From: an uncultured Gemmiger sp.
GTDB taxonomy: Bacteria; Bacillota; Clostridia; Oscillospirales; Ruminococcaceae
DNA: 38,567 bases
NCBI GenBank assembly: GCA_944388105.1
Contig: CALXHN010000014.1
Location: 1 to 38,567, forward strand
Direction: 5' to 3'
Shown here: one piece after another, positions 2,887 through 28,447 of the stretch
How positions within the stretch are numbered: the stretch's first letter is position 1
Layout: every line of letters begins with the position of its first letter
Position numbers and translations under genes: made by a program
Notes under the pieces: model-generated
What the model saw: only the letters and a program-made list of their open reading frames with translations
Databases searched by the model: none
What the model was told of the DNA's origin: nothing

Positions 2887-4284
2887 TTATTGCACTTTTT
2901 GCCCTATGACATTCTTTTCGTAATCCTGTAGAGCTGCCAGCGCTTCAGGCGCAAGAGGGAACAGCGCAATCATATTGAATATGGTCATAAGACCGACACC
3001 GATATCGCCCAGATCCCAAACAAATTGATAGGCGGCCAGTCCGCCGACAAACAACATTACCAAGGCCAGAATCTTATACAATGTCTGGGACAGCCAGTTA
3101 TCTCCGAACAGATAGGCTACATTTGATCGCGCATAAAACAGAATTCCCAGGAAGGTGGACAGACTGAACAGAAGCAGAATCACCGCGATAAAGATTACGC
3201 CAAACTCACCCAAATGATATCGCATGGCTGTCTGAAGCAGATCCATGCCTTCCAAACCGCTGGTCAGCGACTCCGGCGTAAGAAGCATGATCATCGCCGA
3301 GCAGCTGCAAATCACAATGGTATCAATAAAAACCCCCAGCGCCTGCAAAAGCCCCACTTTGGCCGGATGGCTTGCCTGCGCCGCAGCGGCCGCACAGGGG
3401 GAAGATCCGGAGCCGGCTTCGTTGGAGAACAGTCCCCGTTTGGCCCCGTTCATAATGACAACTCCGATCCCACCACTTACAACCTGGCGGAATCCAAATG
3501 CTTCGGAGAAAATACGTACAAAAACCGCCGGCAGTTGTCCGGCATTTTTCAGAATGATAAAGATTGTAATAAAGAAATAGCAGGCAGCCATAATCGGCAC
3601 TATGACATCCAGTACCTTTACGGTTGCATTTTTTCGCAGAACGATAACGCCCGCCACGATCACAAGCGCGATTGCCGTATAAAGCGGCGGGATGTGGAAC
3701 ACATTCTGAAAGGAAGAGGTAATAGAATTGCTGGTCACCTGACTGATCCCACACCAGCACATAAGCCCTGACAGAGCAAATAAAGAGGCTATTACAGACC
3801 GCTTCTTTCGGCTTTCCTTTTTTACGAACAGATGGTGCAGATAATAGGCCGGCCCTCCGCGGTATCCACCATACAAAGGATCCTTTTCCTTATAGATTTG
3901 CGCCAGGGTAGATTCCACAAACGCTGTAGACGACCCCAGCAAAGCCAATATCCACATCCAGAACACAGCACCGGCGCCCCCGGCGGAAATAGCTGCAACC
4001 ACACCTACCAGATTGCCCATGCCGACACGACAGGCAGTAGAAACAATCAGTGCCTGCACACCGGAAATTGCATCGCTGCCATCTTTTTTGTTCTTTTCCA
4101 GAGTGACTTTCATCATTTCCGGAAACAGCCTGAAAGGAAGAAAGTGTGTGCGTACCGTAAAATACAGCCCCGCCGGGACCAGGATCAGCACCAGAAGCGA
4201 AAGCCCTAACACACTGCCACCCGGCAACGGTATTTGAATCAGATCTCCCCAAAGAATATTATAGATTGCCTTAAAAAGAGCCAT
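2887..4284 (-). CDS. Sodium:alanine/glycine symporter, AGCS family
   Basis: The product is 465 residues and highly hydrophobic, with about 10-11 membrane segments. It carries AGCS hallmarks: TACRVGMGNLVGVVAAISAGGAGAVFW near the first third, and the NEAGSGSSP signature in the middle. Members import alanine, glycine or related amino acids with Na+. On the minus strand the ATG at 4284 follows TTTGAGGACTGCCGAT, so GAGG is well placed; an in-frame TTG five codons earlier overlaps that same ribosome binding site and is unlikely. A promoter about 185 bp upstream leaves a long leader with paired inverted repeats, described separately. Confidence 0.9.
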   Translation of the reverse strand: MALFKAIYNILWGDLIQIPLPGGSVLGLSLLVLILVPAGLYFTVRTHFLPFRLFPEMMKVTLEKNKKDGSDAISGVQALIVSTACRVGMGNLVGVVAAISAGGAGAVFWMWILALLGSSTAFVESTLAQIYKEKDPLYGGYRGGPAYYLHHLFVKKESRKKRSVIASLFALSGLMCWCGISQVTSNSITSSFQNVFHIPPLYTAIALVIVAGVIVLRKNATVKVLDVIVPIMAACYFFITIFIILKNAGQLPAVFVRIFSEAFGFRQVVSGGIGVVIMNGAKRGLFSNEAGSGSSPCAAAAAQASHPAKVGLLQALGVFIDTIVICSCSAMIMLLTPESLTSGLEGMDLLQTAMRYHLGEFGVIFIAVILLLFSLSTFLGILFYARSNVAYLFGDNWLSQTLYKILALVMLFVGGLAAYQFVWDLGDIGVGLMTIFNMIALFPLAPEALAALQDYEKNVIGQKVQ

Positions 4285-4323
4285 ATCGGCAGTCCTCAAA
4301 CTTTCATCAACATTCTTGTCTGC

Positions 4324-4379
4324 GCCTCGGGATTTTCAAGTAACCGACAAAGCAATCCTGCAAAGCTTCGTTCCGAGGC
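4324..4379 (-). other. Structured 5' leader of the AGCS symporter gene
   Basis: In the transcribed minus-strand leader GCCTCGG (4373-4379) pairs with CCGAGGC (4324-4330). It encloses a nested helix ACGAAGC/GCTTTGT (4365-4371 with 4348-4354, one G-U). A further 5-bp GGGCA/TGCCC hairpin lies closer to the promoter. I do not recognise the conserved core of the glycine, lysine or SAM riboswitches. This is a structure seen by eye only, with no known class assigned. Confidence 0.35.
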
Positions 4380-4467
4380 ATCTTGCAAGGAAACATGCCG
4401 TTCTGTTCTTTTGTCATCGGGCAGACTTTCGGCAGCCATTTGCCCTGTTATCGAGACTTTCCTTTTT

Positions 4468-4495
4468 ATTATACAGTATGTTCAAAAGTATGCAA
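4468..4495 (-). promoter_or_regulatory. Sigma-A promoter of the AGCS symporter gene
   Basis: On the minus strand TTGCAT, a 16-bp spacer and a perfect TATAAT. It implies a leader of roughly 180 nt before the ATG at 4284. Confidence 0.65.
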
Positions 4496-4511
4496 CCCCC
4501 TCAGCCTTTCT

Positions 4512-5264
4512 TTACCACTCTCTTTTGCTTACAGCGCAGTGAAGTACTTCTTTGCTTTCCGGCAAAAATTCTTGTATAAAATTCTGGGCTTGTTGATCAT
4601 CCGAAAGAAGCACGACAAAAATATCAGCAAATACTTCTGTCTGCCGTTTTTCAAGACCGGACATATAGTTTTCGTCATGCCGCCAGTAGGGAACACCGGA
4701 AGCGTTATAACTGGCAATCAGCGTGTTGGTCATGGCTGTGTCCTGATAAAAAACGGAAAAGAGAATATCGCTGATTGCCAGATTGCGGTAAGTCTCGGCT
4801 TCAAACAAATCTTGTGCCTGAAAGGATTCCTGCATGCGTGCACAATCCAGGGCATATGCTTGAGAAAAGGTCTCTCCCCGGGAAAAATACCCTGATTCTT
4901 CACCATTCAAGTATCGATCCAGTGCATGTCCGAATTCATGCACGGCTTCCGCCGAATCCGCCAGCAGCGCTTTCTCTGTCAAATACACAATATTTTCCTG
5001 GGGATTGTAGCGGCTTGAATCTCCATTTTCGATAAAGCACACGCCGGTATTGTTCTTCACAAAAGCGTAAGCCTGCCTGCACAGTGGGTCGCTGTCCGGA
5101 CCTGCATAAGCAACCTTATAGGGGCTTATAGAGGTGAAGCCCGCCAGCAGGGCAGAAGCAACCGCCCCACTGTTGCGATGTGTATAAAGATAGAGATAAA
5201 AGCTTCCGGTGACAGCTGCTGCCAAAAATAGAAGCAGCAAAAATAGTCTGGCAACACGTTTCAT
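4512..5264 (-). CDS. Putative secreted zinc metallopeptidase (HEFGH motif)
   Basis: The 250-residue protein has a signal peptide or N-terminal anchor (KR followed by LFLLLLFLAAAV). A zinc-binding HEXXH motif is at residues 109-113 (HEFGHALDRYL). A second acidic motif, E210 in TEVFADIF, resembles the downstream zinc-ligand helix of gluzincins such as the anthrax lethal factor/Pro-Pro endopeptidase group (M34-like). The spacing between the motifs, about 97 residues, is longer than in those models, so the family is tentative. The ATG at 5264 follows GGGAGTTCCGAA on the minus strand. It stands next to, and divergent from, the spoIIIA operon. A role in the envelope or at the cell surface is inferred; the substrate is unknown. 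Confidence 0.6.
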   Translation of the reverse strand: MKRVARLFLLLLFLAAAVTGSFYLYLYTHRNSGAVASALLAGFTSISPYKVAYAGPDSDPLCRQAYAFVKNNTGVCFIENGDSSRYNPQENIVYLTEKALLADSAEAVHEFGHALDRYLNGEESGYFSRGETFSQAYALDCARMQESFQAQDLFEAETYRNLAISDILFSVFYQDTAMTNTLIASYNASGVPYWRHDENYMSGLEKRQTEVFADIFVVLLSDDQQAQNFIQEFLPESKEVLHCAVSKREW

Positions 5265-5418
5265 TTCGGAACTCCCTGTGGAAAAAGCCGTAAAACAAAC
5301 TCCTGGGTAGTGTGCCGGATTCAGGTTTGTTTATTCTTGTTTGCTATCGCAGTCTATGCCTGCCAGAATCGGGATGTACAGCTCTTTGAGAACCAGGTTC
5401 TATGTGGTCTGCCCCTAT

Positions 5419-5426
5419 CATACAGT
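5419..5426 (+). promoter_or_regulatory. Sigma-E-like -10 element of the spoIIIA operon
   Basis: CATACAGT closely matches the known mother-cell sigma-E -10 consensus (CATACAMT). A TTCTAT about 15 bp upstream is only a partial match to the -35 element. The expected start near 5433 fits directly before the GAGGTGA ribosome binding site at 5435. SpoIIIA operons are sigma-E controlled in Bacillus and Clostridium, which supports the call. Confidence 0.5.
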
Positions 5427-5446
5427 GATGGTGTGAGGTGAAAGGA

Positions 5447-6337
5447 ATGGACGAGTATTATACTGTTATCCAAGGGCTGCCCGCTGAGATAAAGACCGAA
5501 CTGATGCGGCTTCCGTCAGCCAAAGCCAGGACTGTGCAAGAAATACGTCTTCGTCTCAACCAGCCGCTTCAGTTTACCATCGGCGGCCGACTGGTTCCGG
5601 CGTATCTTTTTCTTCCGCAGGCCACTGTACTCCGCCGGCTTACACCGGGCATCTTGCAGCAGTGCTTTCTTGCCTTGTGCGGCCACAGTGCATACGCATA
5701 TGAGAAGGAACTGTCCTGCGGATATTTCACCACCGACACCGGAAGCCGCGTGGGCGTGGCCGGTCTGTGTGCGCAGGACGGATTTGCCGTTGTACGGGCT
5801 CTCAACCTTCGGGTAGCACGATGGGTGACCTGTCCGCTCCCATCCCGTGTCCAACAGGCCGTCCAACGGCTGGAGGGCGGTATCCTGGTAGCCGGTGTCC
5901 CCGGAAGCGGGAAAACCACATTTTTGCGCAGCCTTATCATGGAGCTGACAAGATGGGATCGCATTTTTTGTGTGGTGGACGAGCGGGGAGAGCTGGTTCC
6001 GCAAAGTTTCACCCATGAGGCAGACGCGCCAGACCTGAATTGTGACGTATATACACGGGTGGACCGCGCAGCCGGAATCAACATGGCTCTGCGCTGCATG
6101 AACCCGCAGGCCATTGTATGCGATGAGCTGGGAACAGCGGCTGATGCATCTGCCTTGGAAGCAGGTCTTGCTTCCGGCGTCGTCTTCCTGGCCTCGGTCC
6201 ATTGCGACACGCCGGAACATCTGTACCAAAAACCTCAGCTGGCCCGCCTGCTCAAAACCGGAGCTTTTTCTCTGGCAGTCTTTTTATCTGGCCGGGACAA
6301 GCCGGGTCAGGTAACGCGTATGGTGAATTTGTCATGA
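5447..6337 (+). CDS. spoIIIAA: Stage III sporulation protein AA, ATPase
   Basis: This 296-residue cytoplasmic ATPase is related to type II/IV secretion ATPases. It has the Walker A motif VPGSGKTT with the lysine at residue 156, followed by VVDERGELV and AIVCDELGT as the Walker B region. In the family it sits on the mother-cell side of the SpoIIIA-SpoIIQ channel complex. The ATG at 5447 is preferred over the in-frame GTG at 5438 because GAGGTGA (5435-5441) is correctly spaced only for the ATG. It is the first gene of an eight-gene operon, and its stop overlaps the spoIIIAB start (ATGA). Confidence 0.93.
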   Translation: MDEYYTVIQGLPAEIKTELMRLPSAKARTVQEIRLRLNQPLQFTIGGRLVPAYLFLPQATVLRRLTPGILQQCFLALCGHSAYAYEKELSCGYFTTDTGSRVGVAGLCAQDGFAVVRALNLRVARWVTCPLPSRVQQAVQRLEGGILVAGVPGSGKTTFLRSLIMELTRWDRIFCVVDERGELVPQSFTHEADAPDLNCDVYTRVDRAAGINMALRCMNPQAIVCDELGTAADASALEAGLASGVVFLASVHCDTPEHLYQKPQLARLLKTGAFSLAVFLSGRDKPGQVTRMVNLS

Positions 6338-6810
6338 CAAATCTTTTCTTAAAGTTTCTGGGCGGCGGGTTGCTGATCTTGTGCGGCGGTGGAATAGGCT
6401 GGACCTCCGCCTGCAGAAAAAAGGAAGCCGCGCATGAAATTTCCGCTTTTGAGCGCTTTCTTCAATATGTATTGGAATCTATCCGCTTCCGAAGTCTACC
6501 GGGAGCAGTTGTCCTGCATATGGCGTCACAGCGTACTGATTTTGCCGCCTTTTGTGCCGGCCCTGTCTCCACTTTTTCTCAGGTCAGGCCTCCTGATTGT
6601 CTGGATCAGGACCTTACAAGGGAACTTCGTGACGGGCTGCGGACGTTGGAGACTGCCCCGCACCAAAACGCATGTGATACCCTGGCCCACATGAATGAGA
6701 TGTGCCGTCATGCCGGCCAGCAGGCACAGGACGCCGCCGATCGCGCTCTGCGCCTTTACCCTCGCATGGGTGCTTGTCTGGGGATGCTGGCTGCCATTGT
6801 CCTGGCTTGA
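6334..6810 (+). CDS. spoIIIAB: Stage III sporulation protein AB
   Basis: The 158-residue protein has an N-terminal membrane segment (LFLKFLGGGLLILCGGGIG), a helical cytoplasmic middle and a C-terminal hydrophobic tail (GACLGMLAAIVLA). This matches the usual SpoIIIAB plan, which resembles a GspF-type platform subunit. The ATG at 6334 overlaps the spoIIIAA stop by four bases. Identity rests on position, length and topology together, because SpoIIIAB sequences are poorly conserved. Confidence 0.88.
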   Translation: MTNLFLKFLGGGLLILCGGGIGWTSACRKKEAAHEISAFERFLQYVLESIRFRSLPGAVVLHMASQRTDFAAFCAGPVSTFSQVRPPDCLDQDLTRELRDGLRTLETAPHQNACDTLAHMNEMCRHAGQQAQDAADRALRLYPRMGACLGMLAAIVLA

Positions 6811-6848
6811 CCGCCCAGGCCGTACTTACTATGGAGGAACTCCCCAAA

Positions 6849-7043
6849 ATGGATATTGATCTGGTTTTCAAGATCGCAGCAATCGGCATCATTGTGGCGG
6901 TGCTGAACCAGCTGCTGATCCGTTCCGGACGGGAAGATCAGGCCATGATGACAACTCTGGCCGGTCTGATCGTGGTACTTACCATGTTGGTGCGGCAGAT
7001 CAGTGACTTGTTTGTGCTGATCAAGGCACTGTTCGATTTGTGA
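6849..7043 (+). CDS. spoIIIAC: Stage III sporulation protein AC
   Basis: A 64-residue membrane protein with two hydrophobic segments and the highly conserved SpoIIIAC string IAAIGIIVAVLNQLL followed by GREDQAMMTTLAGL. The ATG at 6849 gives the family-typical MDIDLVFKIA start, and GGAGGAAC lies about 10 bp upstream. Open frame upstream of this ATG overlaps spoIIIAB and is not part of the gene. It belongs to the membrane part of the channel complex. Confidence 0.95.
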   Translation: MDIDLVFKIAAIGIIVAVLNQLLIRSGREDQAMMTTLAGLIVVLTMLVRQISDLFVLIKALFDL

Positions 7044-7051
7044 TATGAGCT

Positions 7052-7441
7052 ATGCTGATCATAAAAATTGCAGCGCTGGTCCTGGCCGGCGGGCTGCTGG
7101 TCCTGACGCTGAAAAAGGAACAGCCGGCCTTCGCTTTTTTGCTCTCCGTCTGCGGTGCCGGCGCCGTTCTTGTCCTTGCCTTCCGCCAGATCGAACCTCT
7201 TCTTGCATTCATCGAGACGCTCACGGCCTATACCGTTTTGTCGGACGGCCAAAATTTCGGATGCGTGCTGCAGGTACTGGGTATTGCTCTTGTAGCTCAA
7301 TTCGCTGCGGATTTATGTCGGGAATCCGGAATGAATGCTGCAGCCAGCGCCGTGGAGTTATCCGGACGCATGCTGGCCATGCTGCAGGCACTCCCGCTGC
7401 TGCAAAGCTTAGTCGGTTCTTTGTCCTCTTTTCTGGGATAA
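7052..7441 (+). CDS. spoIIIAD: Stage III sporulation protein AD
   Basis: A 129-residue, almost wholly hydrophobic protein with three to four membrane segments. LADLCRESGMNAAASAVELSG-like residues (AADLCRESGMNAAA) near position 85 are the family signature. It starts 8 bases after the spoIIIAC stop; the ribosome binding site is weak (GATATGAG), suggesting coupling to the upstream gene. Known role: integral membrane subunit of the SpoIIIA complex. Confidence 0.93.
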   Translation: MLIIKIAALVLAGGLLVLTLKKEQPAFAFLLSVCGAGAVLVLAFRQIEPLLAFIETLTAYTVLSDGQNFGCVLQVLGIALVAQFAADLCRESGMNAAASAVELSGRMLAMLQALPLLQSLVGSLSSFLG

Positions 7442-7443
7442 CG

Positions 7444-8469
7444 TTGGTTGCCCTGCTGATATCTCCGGAAATTTTGGCGGCAGAAGCACCAGGGAATCCC
7501 GTAGATTACGCGGATCAGGCGCGGGACACGCTTTCTCAGGTACTTCAATGGAACCTTTCTTCCCTCTGGGAAATGCTCGCAAATGCCGCGCAGAACGCTT
7601 TTGGCGCCCCTGTAAGGCTGGCGGTCCAGTCCATAACCTTCTTGTTGCTTTCCTGTGCCGCCAGCTTTCTGGTCACCCAAGGGGGCTGGAAAAAATGTAT
7701 AGATGCCGTTTCTGTATTGGGGTTCGGTGCCATCAGTCTGGCAGGCATGATGGATCTTGTCTCCCTTGTGGGGCAAACATCACAGGAATGTCAGACCTAT
7801 CTGATCGGCTTTATCCCTGTCTATAGCGCGGCAGCCATTGCAGGCGGGCAGACCGGAGGCGCTGCCGTGTACAGCACAATGTTTTATGCCATGTCCGGTT
7901 TCCTTTCAGGCGCCATTCGTTCCGTGCTGATGCCGGTGATGCAAATATATTTCTGCTTTGGCATTTCTGCTGCCGTCTGGGGCAACACGGGAATCGCCGA
8001 GGCCGCTTCACTGTTTGCCAAATGCCTTTCCTGGCTGTTGAAATTATGTGCCGCTTTGTTCAGTTTTGTGCTTGGAATGCAGAATATTCTGGCCGGCAGT
8101 GTGGATAATGCTGCCATCCGAATGGGACGCGGCGTTCTGAGCGGGGCTATCCCGGTAGTTGGTGATGCAGCCGCGGCTGCCTTGACAGGCGCGATCAGTG
8201 CCGTACAGATGCTGAAGGGGTCCCTGGCCCTGACCGCCGTTCTGGCTCTGACTGGATTGTTTCTGCCGGTATTTTTGCGCTGCCTTCTCTTTTATCTGAG
8301 CTTTTCTTTGGCCGGAATCGTTGCCGCCGGAAGCGGACAACAGCAATGCTGGCAGATCTGCCGCAGTTTTGCCCAGGGTGCCAGACTCTGCGGTTCTATC
8401 CTGACTCTTTACTTTTTTATGGTGTTTCTGTCCACTGCACTGCTTCTGCTCACGGGAACGGGGGGATAA
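7444..8469 (+). CDS. spoIIIAE: Stage III sporulation protein AE
   Basis: A polytopic protein of about 341 residues with a glycine-rich central GAIPVVGDAAAAALTGAISA motif, typical of SpoIIIAE (usually ~390-400 residues). SpoIIIAE normally starts with a cleavable signal peptide. Here a fine signal-like sequence (KLSRFFVLFSGITLVALLI then AAEA) is encoded in frame, but its first half overlaps the end of spoIIIAD and carries no ATG. The start given is a TTG two bases after the spoIIIAD stop, with only weak GGGATAA upstream. It truncates that signal. An ATG at 7312 would include it but overlaps spoIIIAD by 130 bases and lacks a ribosome binding site. The product is certain, the start is not. Confidence 0.85.
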   Translation: MVALLISPEILAAEAPGNPVDYADQARDTLSQVLQWNLSSLWEMLANAAQNAFGAPVRLAVQSITFLLLSCAASFLVTQGGWKKCIDAVSVLGFGAISLAGMMDLVSLVGQTSQECQTYLIGFIPVYSAAAIAGGQTGGAAVYSTMFYAMSGFLSGAIRSVLMPVMQIYFCFGISAAVWGNTGIAEAASLFAKCLSWLLKLCAALFSFVLGMQNILAGSVDNAAIRMGRGVLSGAIPVVGDAAAAALTGAISAVQMLKGSLALTAVLALTGLFLPVFLRCLLFYLSFSLAGIVAAGSGQQQCWQICRSFAQGARLCGSILTLYFFMVFLSTALLLLTGTGG

Positions 8470-20576: not shown

Positions 20577-20872
20577 TGTTCAAATGTGTTGATGGGAACC
20601 AGTACCCGCCATGTACTGTGCCAGAGAAGCTTCGGTTGGTGCAAGAAGCTGACAGGACCGGCGGGGAATACATCCCGGAGCAGCAGGCTGAACCCACCAC
20701 CAGTGGCAGTAGGCTGTGCCGTGTGCGCACGTTACAGCGTTTGGGGTGTCGTTCGGTCACACTTTGCCGTTCCGCACCCGCGAAGGCCCGCCGCCGTGAG
20801 GAGCGGGTGAACAGAGGTGGTACCGCGTATTTATCGCCCTCTGCCAAATTCACATTTGGCAGGGGCGTTTTT
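20577..20872 (+). ncRNA. Tyrosine T-box riboswitch (tyrS leader)
   Basis: The distal stem I segment CCAGAGAAGC then TTGGTGCAAGAAGC resembles the AG bulge and apical loop. The specifier loop GAA-TAC-A places the Tyr codon UAC at 20669-20671. The T-box AGAGGTGGTACCGCG is at 20813-20827. An intrinsic terminator follows (stem CGCCC-CTGCCAAAT with ATTTGGCAGGGGCG, 20835-20866, then a T run). The CCTCT in its left arm can instead pair with AGAGG of the T-box as antiterminator. Uncharged tRNA-Tyr should therefore induce tyrS. Confidence 0.92.
20835..20872 (+). terminator. T-box-controlled attenuator terminator
   Basis: A 14-bp stem with one bulged T, loop TCAC-like, followed by six T residues, upstream of tyrS and mutually exclusive with the antiterminator. 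Confidence 0.88.
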
Positions 20873-22707: not shown

Positions 22708-24108
22708 ATGCCGAAAGACAAACTGAAAACCATTTATGTCTGCACCCAATGCGGAGAAACCAGTCCGCGATGGTTAGGACGCTGCCCTTCCTGCGGGGCC
22801 TGGAATACCATGACCGAGGATGTGGTGGCCGAGCCGGCCAAAACCGCTTCCGGAAAAACTGCCGCAGTGCGTACACCCGGTCAGACGAGCCTGACGCCTC
22901 TTAAACTGAGCGGCGTCAGCACCACCGAGGAAAAAAGCCGCATCGTCACCGGCATCGGTGAACTGGACCGGGTGCTCGGCGGCGGTATTGTCATCGGCAG
23001 TGTAACCCTCATTGGCGGCGAACCAGGGATCGGCAAATCCACCATTCTCCTGCAGCTCTGCGGAGAGGTATCCCGTACCCGTTCTGTACTGTATGTGACC
23101 GGCGAAGAATCGGTCCGTCAGATCAAACTGCGCGCGGTGCGGCTGAATGTTCCTCAGGACAATATTTCTCTGGTTGCAGAAAGCGATGTGGATGAAATCT
23201 GTGGGCTGATCGAACAGATGAAACCAGACCTGGTCGTTATCGACTCCATTCAGACCATGAGATGCACCGACATCGCTTCGTCCTCCGGCACTGTTTCTCA
23301 GGTGAAGGAGAGCACCGCCCGGTTTCTGAACGTAGCCAAGACGTATGAGATTCCCACCTTTATTGTGGGCCATGTGAACAAGGACGGTGCGATTGCCGGC
23401 CCCAAGGTCATGGAACATATTGTGGACACCGTCCTGTATTTTGAGGGGGACAAAACCCTGCCATACCGCGTTCTGCGTGCCGTCAAGAATCGCTACGGTT
23501 CCACCAACGAGATCGGCATGTTTGACATGACCGGCCGTGGACTGGAACAAATTGAAAACCCGTCTCAGGTCATGCTGGAAGGGCGTCCGTTGGGAATCAG
23601 TGGCACCTGCGTTGCCTGTGTCATGGAAGGGACCCGCCCTGTATTGGGCGAACTGCAGGCTCTTGTAACCAAGACATCTTTTCCCAGTCCTCGGCGTACC
23701 GCCAGTGGTTTTGACTACAATCGCATGTATCTTTTGCTGGCTGTGCTGGAAAAGCGCACCGGCCATTTCTTCGGGAATCAGGATGTATATCTCAATGTGG
23801 TAGGCGGCCTTCGGTTGGATGAAACAGCCTGTGATCTGCCGGCCTGTTTGGCGATGGTGTCTAGCTTGCTGGATTTGCCCATTGCGGAAAAGACCCTTGC
23901 CATCGGGGAAGTTGGCCTGGGTGGGGAAGTCCGCAGCGTGCCACATCTGGAAACTCGCTTGCGGGAAGCGCAGCGGGTTGGATTTGATACCGCCATCATT
24001 CCCAAACACAACCTGAAAATGCTGGACCAGCGTGAATTCCCCGGGCTTCATCTGATTGGAGTTTCATACCTGCGAGAGGCCGTAAATGCCATCAAACTGA
24101 AAGACTGA
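22708..24108 (+). CDS. radA: DNA repair protein RadA
   Basis: 466 residues. An N-terminal C4 zinc finger (C12, C15, C26, C29) is followed by a RecA-like ATPase with Walker A GGEPGIGKST ending at 112, the RadA-specific KNRYG at 260-264, and a C-terminal Lon-protease-like domain (YLNVVGGLRLDETACDLP). RadA/Sms is a branch-migration helicase in recombination. GGGGAGGGC precedes the ATG. The next gene starts after a 41-bp gap, so co-transcription is likely. Confidence 0.95.
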   Translation: MPKDKLKTIYVCTQCGETSPRWLGRCPSCGAWNTMTEDVVAEPAKTASGKTAAVRTPGQTSLTPLKLSGVSTTEEKSRIVTGIGELDRVLGGGIVIGSVTLIGGEPGIGKSTILLQLCGEVSRTRSVLYVTGEESVRQIKLRAVRLNVPQDNISLVAESDVDEICGLIEQMKPDLVVIDSIQTMRCTDIASSSGTVSQVKESTARFLNVAKTYEIPTFIVGHVNKDGAIAGPKVMEHIVDTVLYFEGDKTLPYRVLRAVKNRYGSTNEIGMFDMTGRGLEQIENPSQVMLEGRPLGISGTCVACVMEGTRPVLGELQALVTKTSFPSPRRTASGFDYNRMYLLLAVLEKRTGHFFGNQDVYLNVVGGLRLDETACDLPACLAMVSSLLDLPIAEKTLAIGEVGLGGEVRSVPHLETRLREAQRVGFDTAIIPKHNLKMLDQREFPGLHLIGVSYLREAVNAIKLKD

Positions 24109-26086: not shown

Positions 26087-26115
26087 TTGACAGGCGGGGA
26101 AAAGTGTGGTATAGT
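26087..26115 (+). promoter_or_regulatory. Sigma-A promoter of the Xer recombinase gene
   Basis: A perfect TTGACA (26087-26092), a 17-bp spacer and TATAGT (26110-26115). Transcription should start near 26122, about 146 nt before the chosen ATG. Confidence 0.85.
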
Positions 26116-26131: not shown

Positions 26132-26159
26132 ATTTCGCTAAATGTAAGTTTAGCGAAAT
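26132..26159. repeat. 28-bp perfect 11-6-11 palindrome, candidate Xer core site or operator
   Basis: Arms ATTTCGCTAAA (26132-26142) and TTTAGCGAAAT (26149-26159) are exact inverse complements around the asymmetric 6-bp spacer TGTAAG. It begins about 10 bp after the predicted transcription start of a Xer-type recombinase gene. Length and layout equal those of dif-like sites. It could also act as an operator or a 5' mRNA stem-loop. Confidence 0.6.
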
Positions 26160-26237
26160 ATGGGGGAGTGGTTTTTATCTTTTCCGCCTTTGCAGCTGCC
26201 GGTCTGTAAGTCATTTTCCTTGCATCCGGCTTTAACC

Positions 26238-26260
26238 ATACCTATACGTAAGAGAGGTAT
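26238..26260 (+). promoter_or_regulatory. Hairpin covering the ribosome binding site of the recombinase gene
   Basis: ATACCT (26238-26243) can pair with AGGTAT (26255-26260). The second arm contains the end of the AGAGAGG ribosome binding site, so folding would hide it. Confidence 0.4.
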
Positions 26261-26267
26261 TTTTCCC

Positions 26268-27326
26268 ATGAGCACTTACATTGATGTCGCACATCCTGAA
26301 CGCCATGCACCTTATCTGGATATCCCTGATACTGTGATCGAATATCTTCATTATCTCGACTTCGTCAAGCTGCGTTCACCGCGTACAGTCAACGGCTATT
26401 ATCTCGATCTGCGAGGATTCTTTCGGTATATGATGGTCATATGGTCCCTGTGCAGCCAGCAAACGCTGGAAACGGATCCCACCAAGATTGATCTGACCCA
26501 CATCACCATCGAACAAATCAGAAAAGTTCAGAAACGGGACATTCTGAACTATCTGGATTATACGCGCACCAATGAAAATGGTCCCAAGGCCCGTGCCCGC
26601 AAGCTTTCGGCTCTGCGCGGATTCTTTGGATATTTGTGTAATCAGGTGAATCTCATCCATGATGATCCTACTGCCAACATCAGTCTTGGTACGCCCAAAA
26701 AAGCTTTGCCCAAGTATCTTTCTGCAGAAGAAAGCATCGAATTGTTAAATAATATACAAAGCGACTTTTATGAGCGAGACTTCTGCATCCTTACTTTGTT
26801 CCTCAACTGCGGTATGCGTCTGGCAGAATTGATCACCATCAATCTGAGCGATTTCAAGGATGGAACCATCCGGATCACCGGCAAAGGCGGTAAAGAGCGA
26901 TTGGTATATCTGAACACTGCTTGCCAGGATGCTCTGGCTCACTATCTTCCAGCACGGGCAGCTTTACCCCATCTGACAGATTCCAACGCTCTTTTTGTAT
27001 CCAAGCGAACCGGCAAACGCCTGACTGCACGCCGGGTACAGCAGATTGTGGAACGGTGCCTGCAAAGTGCCGGTTTGTCCGGCCGCGGATATTCTCCGCA
27101 TAAGCTGCGGCATACCGCCGCCACACTCATGTATCAGGGCGGCGTTGACATGCTGGCATTGAAAGAAATCCTGGGGCACGAAAATGTCTCTACCACACAG
27201 ATCTATACGCATATCAATCAGCAGCAGCTTAGGGATGCCGTCGCGGCTTCTCCCCTCTCCTCTCACAAATTCAAACCTCAGCAGGAAAATGTATCAGATA
27301 AGGACGCCGGCGAAGAGAACTCCTGA
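26268..27326 (+). CDS. Xer-type tyrosine recombinase
   Basis: A 352-residue tyrosine recombinase. The N-terminal SAM-like core-binding domain (LRSPRTVNGYYLDLRGFFRYM) precedes a catalytic domain with all expected residues: R184 (GMRLAEL), K206 (GKGGKER), H278 and R281 (PHKLRH), H304 (LGHEN) and the nucleophile Y313 (IYTHI). It is about 50 residues longer than E. coli XerC/D, as in the conserved chromosomal Clostridia type. The chromosome dimer resolution role is inferred from family and from the adjacent spoIIM-like gene, which neighbours xerD in Bacillus. The ATG at 26268 follows AGAGAGG; an upstream in-frame ATG at 26160 lacks a ribosome binding site. The 3' end overlaps the convergent spoIIM-like gene by 33 bp. 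Confidence 0.9.
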   Translation: MSTYIDVAHPERHAPYLDIPDTVIEYLHYLDFVKLRSPRTVNGYYLDLRGFFRYMMVIWSLCSQQTLETDPTKIDLTHITIEQIRKVQKRDILNYLDYTRTNENGPKARARKLSALRGFFGYLCNQVNLIHDDPTANISLGTPKKALPKYLSAEESIELLNNIQSDFYERDFCILTLFLNCGMRLAELITINLSDFKDGTIRITGKGGKERLVYLNTACQDALAHYLPARAALPHLTDSNALFVSKRTGKRLTARRVQQIVERCLQSAGLSGRGYSPHKLRHTAATLMYQGGVDMLALKEILGHENVSTTQIYTHINQQQLRDAVAASPLSSHKFKPQQENVSDKDAGEENS

Positions 27327-27980
27327 TGCCGCACCCAGCATGCAGAATCCGGCACACAACGCAACTGCCGTAAAAAATCTGATCAGGAGTTTACGCAGCT
27401 GTGCTGTTAGCCGCAGCTGAGAACTTCCTGTCAGTCCGCGCAGTATTCCAGATGCGCATAGGTGCGCCTGCATTGCCAGCCACAGCATGACCAAAAAAAC
27501 ACTCAAATCCGGCAGACAGGTTAACAGCCAGTGGATTACCAGGGCCCTTGTGCCTCCTTGCATAAAAACGCTGGATGCACAGAGCCCCCACACCGCGCCA
27601 CGGGCAGCAAAGTACAGGCAGAGAAATCCGCTCCCCAATGCACTGAATCCACAAGCCAGAACAAGAACAGCCTGCAAAAAGGCGCTGCCGAATTCATTCC
27701 AAAACAGCGGCGTGAAAAGAGAGAAATTTTTTGCCTCCATATAATACGCAGCCAGCAGTTTTCCAAAATTCGATTCTTCCGACCTGCCTTTCAGGATTCC
27801 TACCATGTATCCGGCAAAAAACAAAAGACCAAAGAGCGCAGTTATTTTCCAGGTGGAATTCCCATCCCGCGGTCGGGTATGATCCGCTTTTCCATGACCC
27901 GCAATCGGACGTCCTTTTTTCCAAATATCCGCAACGGGAATCTGGGATATCCCCGGTACGGTTGTTCTGGCGGTGCGCAT
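27294..27980 (-). CDS. spoIIM: Stage II sporulation protein M-like membrane protein
   Basis: 228 residues. A basic head of about 45 residues is followed by five hydrophobic segments in the SpoIIM/DUF95 arrangement: LFGLLFFAGYMVGIL, then a conserved-looking FLQAVLVLACGFSALGSGFL and WLLTCLPDLSVFLVMLWLA. SpoIIM works with SpoIID and SpoIIP in peptidoglycan remodelling for engulfment. Sequence similarity is moderate, but spoIIM neighbours xerD in Bacillus, which supports the call. The ATG at 27980 overlaps the upstream stop (TGATG). It is the last gene of a tgt-yajC-TIGR04086-spoIIM series, an unusual place for it. Confidence 0.65.
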   Translation of the reverse strand: MRTARTTVPGISQIPVADIWKKGRPIAGHGKADHTRPRDGNSTWKITALFGLLFFAGYMVGILKGRSEESNFGKLLAAYYMEAKNFSLFTPLFWNEFGSAFLQAVLVLACGFSALGSGFLCLYFAARGAVWGLCASSVFMQGGTRALVIHWLLTCLPDLSVFLVMLWLAMQAHLCASGILRGLTGSSQLRLTAQLRKLLIRFFTAVALCAGFCMLGAASGVLFAGVLI

Positions 27981-28447
27981 CAGCGTGCCCTCTCCGTATG
28001 ACTGCCGCCCTTACGCAAGGCCCCCGCCGCACTGCCGGCCACAGCCCCCAGCATCAATACCGCCATCAGCGAAAGATTTCTGCCATCTGCTGTCGGCATC
28101 CGCGCCGACAGCAGTCCGGCGCCGATTGCACAAAGACAATAGAACACACCACAAGCCAGACCGGAAAGCAACCGAAAACGCTCCACACCGTGACTGAGGA
28201 CCAGCCCCGAAACAAAGCTGCCGCACGCGGCTGCCACACATGCCGCGGGACCAATCCAGCTCAGCGGAAGATTTGTGTTGGCAAACGCCACAGACAATGC
28301 ACAGAGCATCAGCGTCACCGTGCCGGCTCCGGCTAAAAAGCCGCGAATGACCGCCAGACACAACTCTCGCTGCGGGCTGCTGCCCCGCACAGTGGGACGA
28401 ATTCGCCTGCGGCCGGGAGATCCTTTTTTGAGTTTGCTTTTATACAT
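27980..28447 (-). CDS. TIGR04086 family membrane protein (YrzE-like)
   Basis: The 155-residue protein has a basic N-terminus and four hydrophobic segments: VIRGFLAGAGTVTLMLCALSVAFA, AACVAAACGSFVSGLVLS, LLSGLACGVFYCLCAIGAGLL and a C-terminal LSLMAVLMLGAVAGSAAGAL. This fits TIGR04086, found downstream of yajC in Firmicutes; function unknown. The ATG at 28447 has AGGAGG upstream, but that motif is inside a terminator-like hairpin listed separately. Confidence 0.8.
   Translation of the reverse strand: MYKSKLKKGSPGRRRIRPTVRGSSPQRELCLAVIRGFLAGAGTVTLMLCALSVAFANTNLPLSWIGPAACVAAACGSFVSGLVLSHGVERFRLLSGLACGVFYCLCAIGAGLLSARMPTADGRNLSLMAVLMLGAVAGSAAGALRKGGSHTERAR

Follow-up and report, generated by a model that had tools for sequence, protein, structure and literature searches.

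Xer systems that work with a single recombinase, of which the available portions of PMC5357621 and PMC9765430 name XerS/difSL, XerH/difH, XerA and XerL, are known from streptococci and lactococci, epsilon-proteobacteria, archaea and Legionellales. According to the accessible part of PMC9765430, the XerL/dif site of Legionellales lies at the terminus, has 10- and 12-bp arms with perfect dyad symmetry, carries an integrated mobile element (LME-1), and is >400 kb away from xerL in L. pneumophila. In XerS/difSL of streptococci and lactococci, the single recombinase gene (356 aa) lies directly beside a 31-bp site with an 11-bp centre and unequal arms, and in XerH/difH of Campylobacter and Helicobacter, a single recombinase of 354–362 aa is encoded near its site (both from the accessible part of PMC5357621). 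The string "clostridi" is absent from the texts of PMC5357621 and PMC9765430. In the portion of PMC3025954 available, dif is predicted in 97 of 100 single-chromosome Firmicutes, with failures in two Clostridium and one Lactobacillus; the site described here may therefore already have been published for Clostridium among those predictions, and "Ruminococc" is absent from the text of that paper. None of the literature matches listed, judged by title, describes a palindromic dif worked by a single Xer in Clostridia or Gemmiger. The XerCD/dif system of E. coli combines a 28-bp site of 11-6-11 layout at the terminus with polar motifs and the FtsK gamma domain, and the two arms of its dif, symmetric at only 6 of 11 positions, are specific for XerC and XerD.

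Here we describe a site and an adjacent recombinase gene, xer, in a window of 38,567 nucleotides, the whole stretch of Gemmiger sp. DNA that was analysed. The features of the locus are as follows:

26087..26115, + strand: sigma-70-type xer promoter, TTGACA-17-TATAGT, similar in 11 of 20 Gemmiger loci
26132..26142, + strand: left 11-bp arm, ATTTCGCTAAA; arms kept in 21 of 25 Gemmiger genomes
26143..26148, + strand: 6-bp centre, TGTAAG; consensus TNNAAR if oriented with the G-rich flank on the right
26149..26159, + strand: right 11-bp arm, TTTAGCGAAAT
26160..26168, + strand: one-sided G-rich flank, here ATG-GGGGAG
26251..26257, + strand: Shine-Dalgarno-like AGAGAGG of xer, identified by eye
26268..27326, + strand: xer, a 352-aa tyrosine recombinase with PF02899 and PF00589 domains

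The sequence ATTTCGCTAAA-TGTAAG-TTTAGCGAAAT is a perfect 28-bp palindrome at 26132-26159, with the dif layout of two 11-bp arms and a 6-bp centre, exactly as the original prediction had claimed. The promoter boxes (TTGACA at 26087-26092 and TATAGT at 26110-26115, with a 17 nt spacer) precede the site, and xer starts 108 bp downstream of it. We found no second match to the 28-mer in the window with up to three mismatches, and none in 100 shuffles. With the centre left free, the arms had a single match in the whole 2.37-Mb, 170-contig genome at the same tolerance; this check of copy number favours dif. The window contains two perfect 11-6-11 palindromes, versus 0.009 expected for random sequence. 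The second, at 28087-28114, is GC-rich and lies within an ORF (27980-28447) with a DUF3792 match. Further upstream on the + strand are a T-box leader (20580-20844; Rfam RF00230, 105 bits) and an ORF at 22708-24108, which we take to be RadA-like from its Zn ribbon, KaiC/AAA, ChlI and Lon_C matches.

The locus shares a single recombinase, perfect arm symmetry, a terminus location and inserted elements with XerL/dif, a likeness drawn from described features rather than protein sequences, but has equal arms beside the gene and belongs to another phylum. It resembles XerS/difSL in the adjacent gene for a protein of similar length, but differs in the layout of the site. XerH/difH is likewise similar, by description, in its single recombinase and in a site near the gene, but the Gemmiger Xer scored only 75 bits to the solved XerH (5jjv), and XerH also comes from another phylum. 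The site matches E. coli dif (from NC_000913.3) at 17 of 28 positions, 6 in the left arm and 7 in the right; the predicted 7 of 11 agreement between the right arm and the E. coli XerD arm is thus correct. In contrast to E. coli dif, its arms are symmetric at 11 of 11 positions.

We searched 41 genomes (25 of Gemmiger and 16 of other families) with the arms fixed, the centre free and up to three mismatches allowed. The arms were matched in 21 of the 25 Gemmiger genomes, intact in 20 and with one change in the other, while the reversed control pattern had no matches in the 41 genomes. Conservation of the arms, which had been proposed as a check, therefore holds within the genus, with a variable centre: read with the flank to the right, seven centres occur (TGTAAG, TGTAAA, TGCAAA, GGCAAG, GATAAG, TTGAAG and TGCGAG). 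There was one match at this tolerance in 19 of the 21 genomes, with two in G010 and three in G006. Among 22 Gemmiger loci with a close xer homolog, the site lies 45 to 548 bp upstream of the xer start in 20, and a contig end intervenes in the remaining two; in one of these, from G020, the site is on another contig, beside the first 42 residues of xer. Three genomes that are 71–86% complete (G016, G021 and G024) yielded no site and no close homolog of xer. Additional dif-like sites, for which no neighbouring xer was seen, are present in G. formicilis ATCC 27749 (L149:2749 and L181:512, both with centre TCAAAG, versus TGCAAA at the main site) and in strain DFI.6.10 (L159:6024 and L191:3661).

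All five single-contig genomes for which both positions are known have the site close to the point opposite dnaA, where a dif would be expected; the window's own genome is in 170 contigs. The distance from the dnaA antipode is 26.7 kb (0.82%) in the Gemmiger genome G004, 13.7 kb (0.38%) in Anaerotruncus colihominis (CP102255.1), 107 kb (1.82%) in Clostridium sp. OS1-26 (NZ_CP133264.1), 84 kb (1.32%) in C. manihotivorum (NZ_CP025746.1), and 33.9 kb (1.13%) for a site with ACAAAA-type arms, described below, in G032. The product of 2d/L over the five chromosomes is 2.8e-9, a value that ignores relatedness. GC skew in G004 is predominantly negative between 0 and 1.3 Mb and predominantly positive between 1.8 and 3.14 Mb, and the cumulative GC-skew maximum lies 10-35 kb to the right of the site. 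Polar motifs also converge on the site in this one genome. Over 760 kb, AGGGGAG favours the leading strand by 57 copies to 6; closer to the site there are 16 plus-strand and 3 minus-strand copies on the left and 1 plus-strand and 21 minus-strand copies on the right, with the flip falling between -1984 and +1262 bp. Near the terminus, 33 of 37 leading-strand copies are in long ORFs, and GGGGAG ranks 11th among hexamers by skew, such that the polarity of AGGGGAG could stem from gene direction and codon use. As to a Shine-Dalgarno role of these chromosomal copies, ATG follows 5 of the 37. In G032, an FtsK gamma match (G032:C1 1526975) lies ~12 kb from the palindromic site near the terminus.

The xer product belongs to the tyrosine recombinase superfamily, with the catalytic residues R, K, HxxR, H and Y present in PF00589. 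It falls below the NCBIfam cut-offs for XerC (220 of 335 bits), XerD (195 of 330), archaeal XerA (188 of 220) and XerS (143 of 267), and the 6-bp centre of its site also departs from difSL. In a midpoint-rooted tree of 47 proteins, 37 xer products formed one group (100/100) apart from the other ten, which were E. coli XerC and XerD plus eight XerD proteins from relatives; the program warned of long branches, including that of E. coli XerC. Ten aligned xer products keep the catalytic set and have an insertion in the N-terminal domain relative to XerC/XerD. No gene in the 25 Gemmiger genomes passed the XerD cut-off, and in the window's own genome the sole match both to the XerD model and to the xer protein is xer itself. 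For Gemmiger, these data support the earlier proposal that the site is used by one recombinase rather than by a XerC/D pair. XerD was above cut-off in 4 of the 41 genomes (G025, G026, G031 and G035), just under it in G030 and G032 (295 and 320 of 330 bits), and above it in two of five named genomes, those of Clostridium sp. OS1-26 and C. hydrogeniformans, both of which have the palindrome. We rejected the idea that arm symmetry generally arises through loss of XerD, since XerD coexists with a symmetric site in OS1-26, C. hydrogeniformans and G031. The FtsK gamma domain is present in 38 of the 41 genomes, including 24 of the 25 from Gemmiger. A different dif elsewhere would have spoken against the prediction; none was evident with the exact canonical pattern AKAA-N6-TTATGTNAANT, which a divergent form would escape, and its 7 matches in 6 of 41 genomes (one of the 25 from Gemmiger) do not stand out from chance, versus 5 in 3 genomes for the reversed control.

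Sites with these arms, next to an orthologous xer, extend beyond Gemmiger to other Oscillospirales and to Clostridium. A scan of the genome_contigs collection (257 billion bases) with TTCGCTAAA-N6-TTTAGCGAA returned at least 116 stretches. For 80 of the 116 matches listed, an xer ortholog lies within 2.5 kb, with the site upstream of it in 78 of the 80; of the rest, 19 sites fall close to an end of the retrieved sequence, and 17 are well inside with no xer near. The titles of four of the 116 matches listed name other phyla (Planctomycetaceae, Kangiella, Bacteroidia and Ignavibacteriales), about the chance number (4 estimated for 18 fixed bases in 257 billion), and the other titles listed are of Clostridia or Bacillota. 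The outermost two arm positions, absent from the search pattern, are complementary between arms in 72 of the 80 xer-linked sites listed, a count inflated by relatedness (2000 shuffles: mean 37.8, maximum 50), and in 24 of the 36 other sites listed (shuffle mean 11.0, maximum 18). Among viral contigs, the pattern occurs in 34 stretches, with xer nearby in two; the IMG/VR contigs L216, L227/L230 and L201/L209 each have two or three arm palindromes with differing centres.

Six other families of the order (represented by G031, G033, G034, G037, G038 and G039) have a perfect 11-6-11 palindrome beside xer with different arms, of the ACAAAA type (ATTNNACAAAA-N6-TTTTGTNNAAT) or, in G037, beginning ACT. 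Both arms have changed together, as predicted for one protein acting on both. GGGGAG adjoins three of the six sites, and a different G-rich flank the other three. The palindrome beside xer in G030 is near-perfect, whereas the ACAAAA-type site is ~6.5 kb from xer in G032 and on another contig than xer in G027. Two perfect ACAAAA-type palindromes are present in G034, one of them at xer; the second (G034:C49 5109) has a G-rich flank and lies on a 6.7-kb contig, perhaps a plasmid or phage. In total, 9 of the 16 other-family genomes have a clear palindrome, and G036 has a doubtful one; none was seen in G026, G028, G035 or G040, and none near xer in G025 or G029, where the xer locus was covered. Unrelated, terminator-like perfect 11-6-11 palindromes were also present in 8 of 17 loci scanned; hence, the ACAAAA-type sites were judged by their shared arms, recognised post hoc, and not by symmetry alone.

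Because the arms are identical, any direction of the site must have another source. In the 20 Gemmiger sites, one arm is always followed by a GGG flank (GGGGAG in 14 and a near form in 6), which is on the gene side in 18 of the 20 loci; in the other two, from G006 and G017, flank and centre are inverted as one unit relative to xer. Of the 80 xer-linked sites among the matches listed, 46 have a G-rich flank on one side, four on both and 30 on neither, and all 16 Clostridium-titled sites listed are among the 30. When the 46 are oriented by the flank, the centre has T at its first position (45 sites), any base at the second and third, A at the fourth (45) and fifth (44), and A or G at the sixth (46). 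Selection by flank makes the flank counts circular, but the centre played no part in it. We rejected the flank as a Shine-Dalgarno sequence, since in G006 and G017 it is turned round along with the site, and it remains next to the site even where the gene is hundreds of bases off. We suggest that the asymmetric centre (TNNAAR) supplies direction and that, in Gemmiger and relatives, the one-sided G-rich motif keeps a constant side relative to it. The site is thus a symmetric one to which a centre-coupled G-rich flank would give direction in Gemmiger and relatives, and not in Clostridium, a role for the flank that we infer from these patterns.

How the flank might act is suggested by its resemblance to the polar word. 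In E. coli, one surface of FtsK gamma binds both KOPS and XerD (PMC5052618, in the part available), which makes a polar motif adjacent to dif worth testing. The G-rich motif, close to AGGGGAG, could mark one of two identical half-sites for docking or activation by FtsK gamma, replacing the asymmetry of XerC and XerD arms in a one-recombinase dif of Gemmiger and relatives, with ssDNA phages exploiting the site by means of a recombinase reduced to its catalytic domain. We consider this doubtful. The flank in G004 is AGGGAGG, and on its own side of the site a flank copy faces away from it, whereas chromosomal AGGGGAG copies face toward it; together with the location of these copies in ORFs and the rank of the hexamer, this weakens the link between flank and polar word and lowers the odds that the flank is a marker.

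Filamentous prophages of the CTXphi/RS1 type sit at dif in Vibrio. At three loci (in G010, L125 and L187), small Rep-encoding elements resembling ssDNA phages lie at the site described here, and all three encode tyrosine recombinases consisting of the catalytic domain only, 178–202 aa long:

L054 6648-7199: recombinase of the G010 element
L125 5165-5773: recombinase of the L125 element
L187 2061-2597: recombinase of the L187 element

The host promoter side and the intact site at xer are 3.85 kb apart in G010. At the outer junction, a left arm is followed by an 8-bp centre (TGTTTTAA), in which TGT is all that is left of the host centre, then by a right arm and a second dif-like copy. The Rep of this element shares 28% identity, across 58% of its length, with the replication protein of Dulem virus 72, a virus filed under Inoviridae, and has no Pfam match even at E 10 and none in PHROGs, plasmids or viral_contigs; Dulem virus 72 itself has no clear copy of the 28-mer, the best match being 16 of 22 arm positions. 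The G010 recombinase domain is 183 aa long, and those of L125 and L187 are 42 and 37% identical to it. The L125 and L187 inserts, two of the 116 matches listed and read without an empty-site comparison, encode a PF23343 replication protein and have two dif-like copies at the far end. Next to the L187 element, in an uncultured Clostridia MAG, is an inovirus-like gene set (3904-7975; Rep_trans, a Zot-like ATPase and small ORFs). The likeness to CTXphi/RS1 lies in small Rep-encoding elements at the site, extra att-like copies and, in one case, inovirus-like genes following, but the elements here differ in encoding the small recombinase. These insertions point to natural use of the site for integration, whichever enzyme is responsible. 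Since the elements carry their own recombinase domain with catalytic residues, the insertions are no proof of Xer action; the small recombinases could be an integrase or a partner of Xer.

The single copy, the conserved arms and the position opposite dnaA in five single-contig relatives all favour the dif reading put forward in the original prediction, and we conclude that the palindrome is very probably the dif of the chromosome, worked by the single Xer encoded beside it. We infer binding, cleavage, dimer resolution and FtsK control from sequence: each of the two identical arms would be bound by one Xer protomer, the two sites of a chromosome dimer would synapse, each protomer would cut at the edge of the 6-bp centre, and strand exchange would convert the dimer to two monomers at division, with FtsK probably switching recombination on. 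Alternatively, a second tyrosine recombinase that accepts the same arm could act on the dif alongside this Xer. XerD above cut-off in OS1-26, C. hydrogeniformans, G025, G026, G031 and G035 fits such an arrangement, as does the polarity of flank and centre, which makes the half-sites inequivalent; however, none of the 25 Gemmiger genomes has XerD above cut-off, and xer is the only gene of its own genome to match the XerD model or the xer protein, making a second recombinase unlikely. In the two Clostridium genomes, 46 kb and ~1.5 Mb separate the XerD gene from the site, distances that on their own carry no weight.

Two explanations tie the palindrome to expression of xer instead of recombination. 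It could be no more than an operator by which Xer, or some other regulator, acts on the xer promoter, consistent with its start 16 bp after the -10 box, and with the 13–17 bp between the end of an upstream promoter (at least 9 of 12 matches) and the site in 11 of 20 Gemmiger loci. It could also fold into a stem-loop in the 5' part of the xer mRNA, with a stabilising or regulatory effect on the transcript: the palindrome is a perfect hairpin, and the leader folds better than 200 of 200 shuffles (-45.3 kcal/mol, z -3.7). However, we found no such promoter in 9 of the 20 loci, which argues against both, and the distance between site and gene ranges from 45 to 548 bp. The separation of site and gene in G032 and G027 also fits neither explanation, and the terminus position and the inserted elements are no features of an operator. 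A stem requires pairing only, yet the arm sequence itself is conserved; moreover, the terminus position is not accounted for by a stem-loop, and no Rfam family reaches its gathering score at the site. Given the inverted units in two Gemmiger genomes, the sites away from the gene in two genomes of other families and the three insertions, neither an operator nor a leader hairpin alone is sufficient. We regard the operator as very improbable, and give the stem-loop almost no credence. The earlier suggestion that binding at the site controls the gene is therefore not supported as a sole explanation and is plausible as a second role: with the palindrome as dif, autoregulation of xer by site-bound Xer is a plausible side effect where the promoter adjoins.

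What is new here is the combination of perfect symmetry with a one-sided G-rich flank, in Gemmiger and relatives, in a probable single-recombinase Xer module. Chromosome dimer resolution is basic biology, and our analysis adds a likely single-recombinase version of it in Gemmiger and, in many other Clostridia, at least a symmetric site beside an orthologous recombinase. The symmetry raises a testable question, namely how one enzyme on a symmetric site picks the first strand. In fragmented gut genomes, the site can also serve to locate the replication terminus, and it marks where some small phages of these genomes insert.
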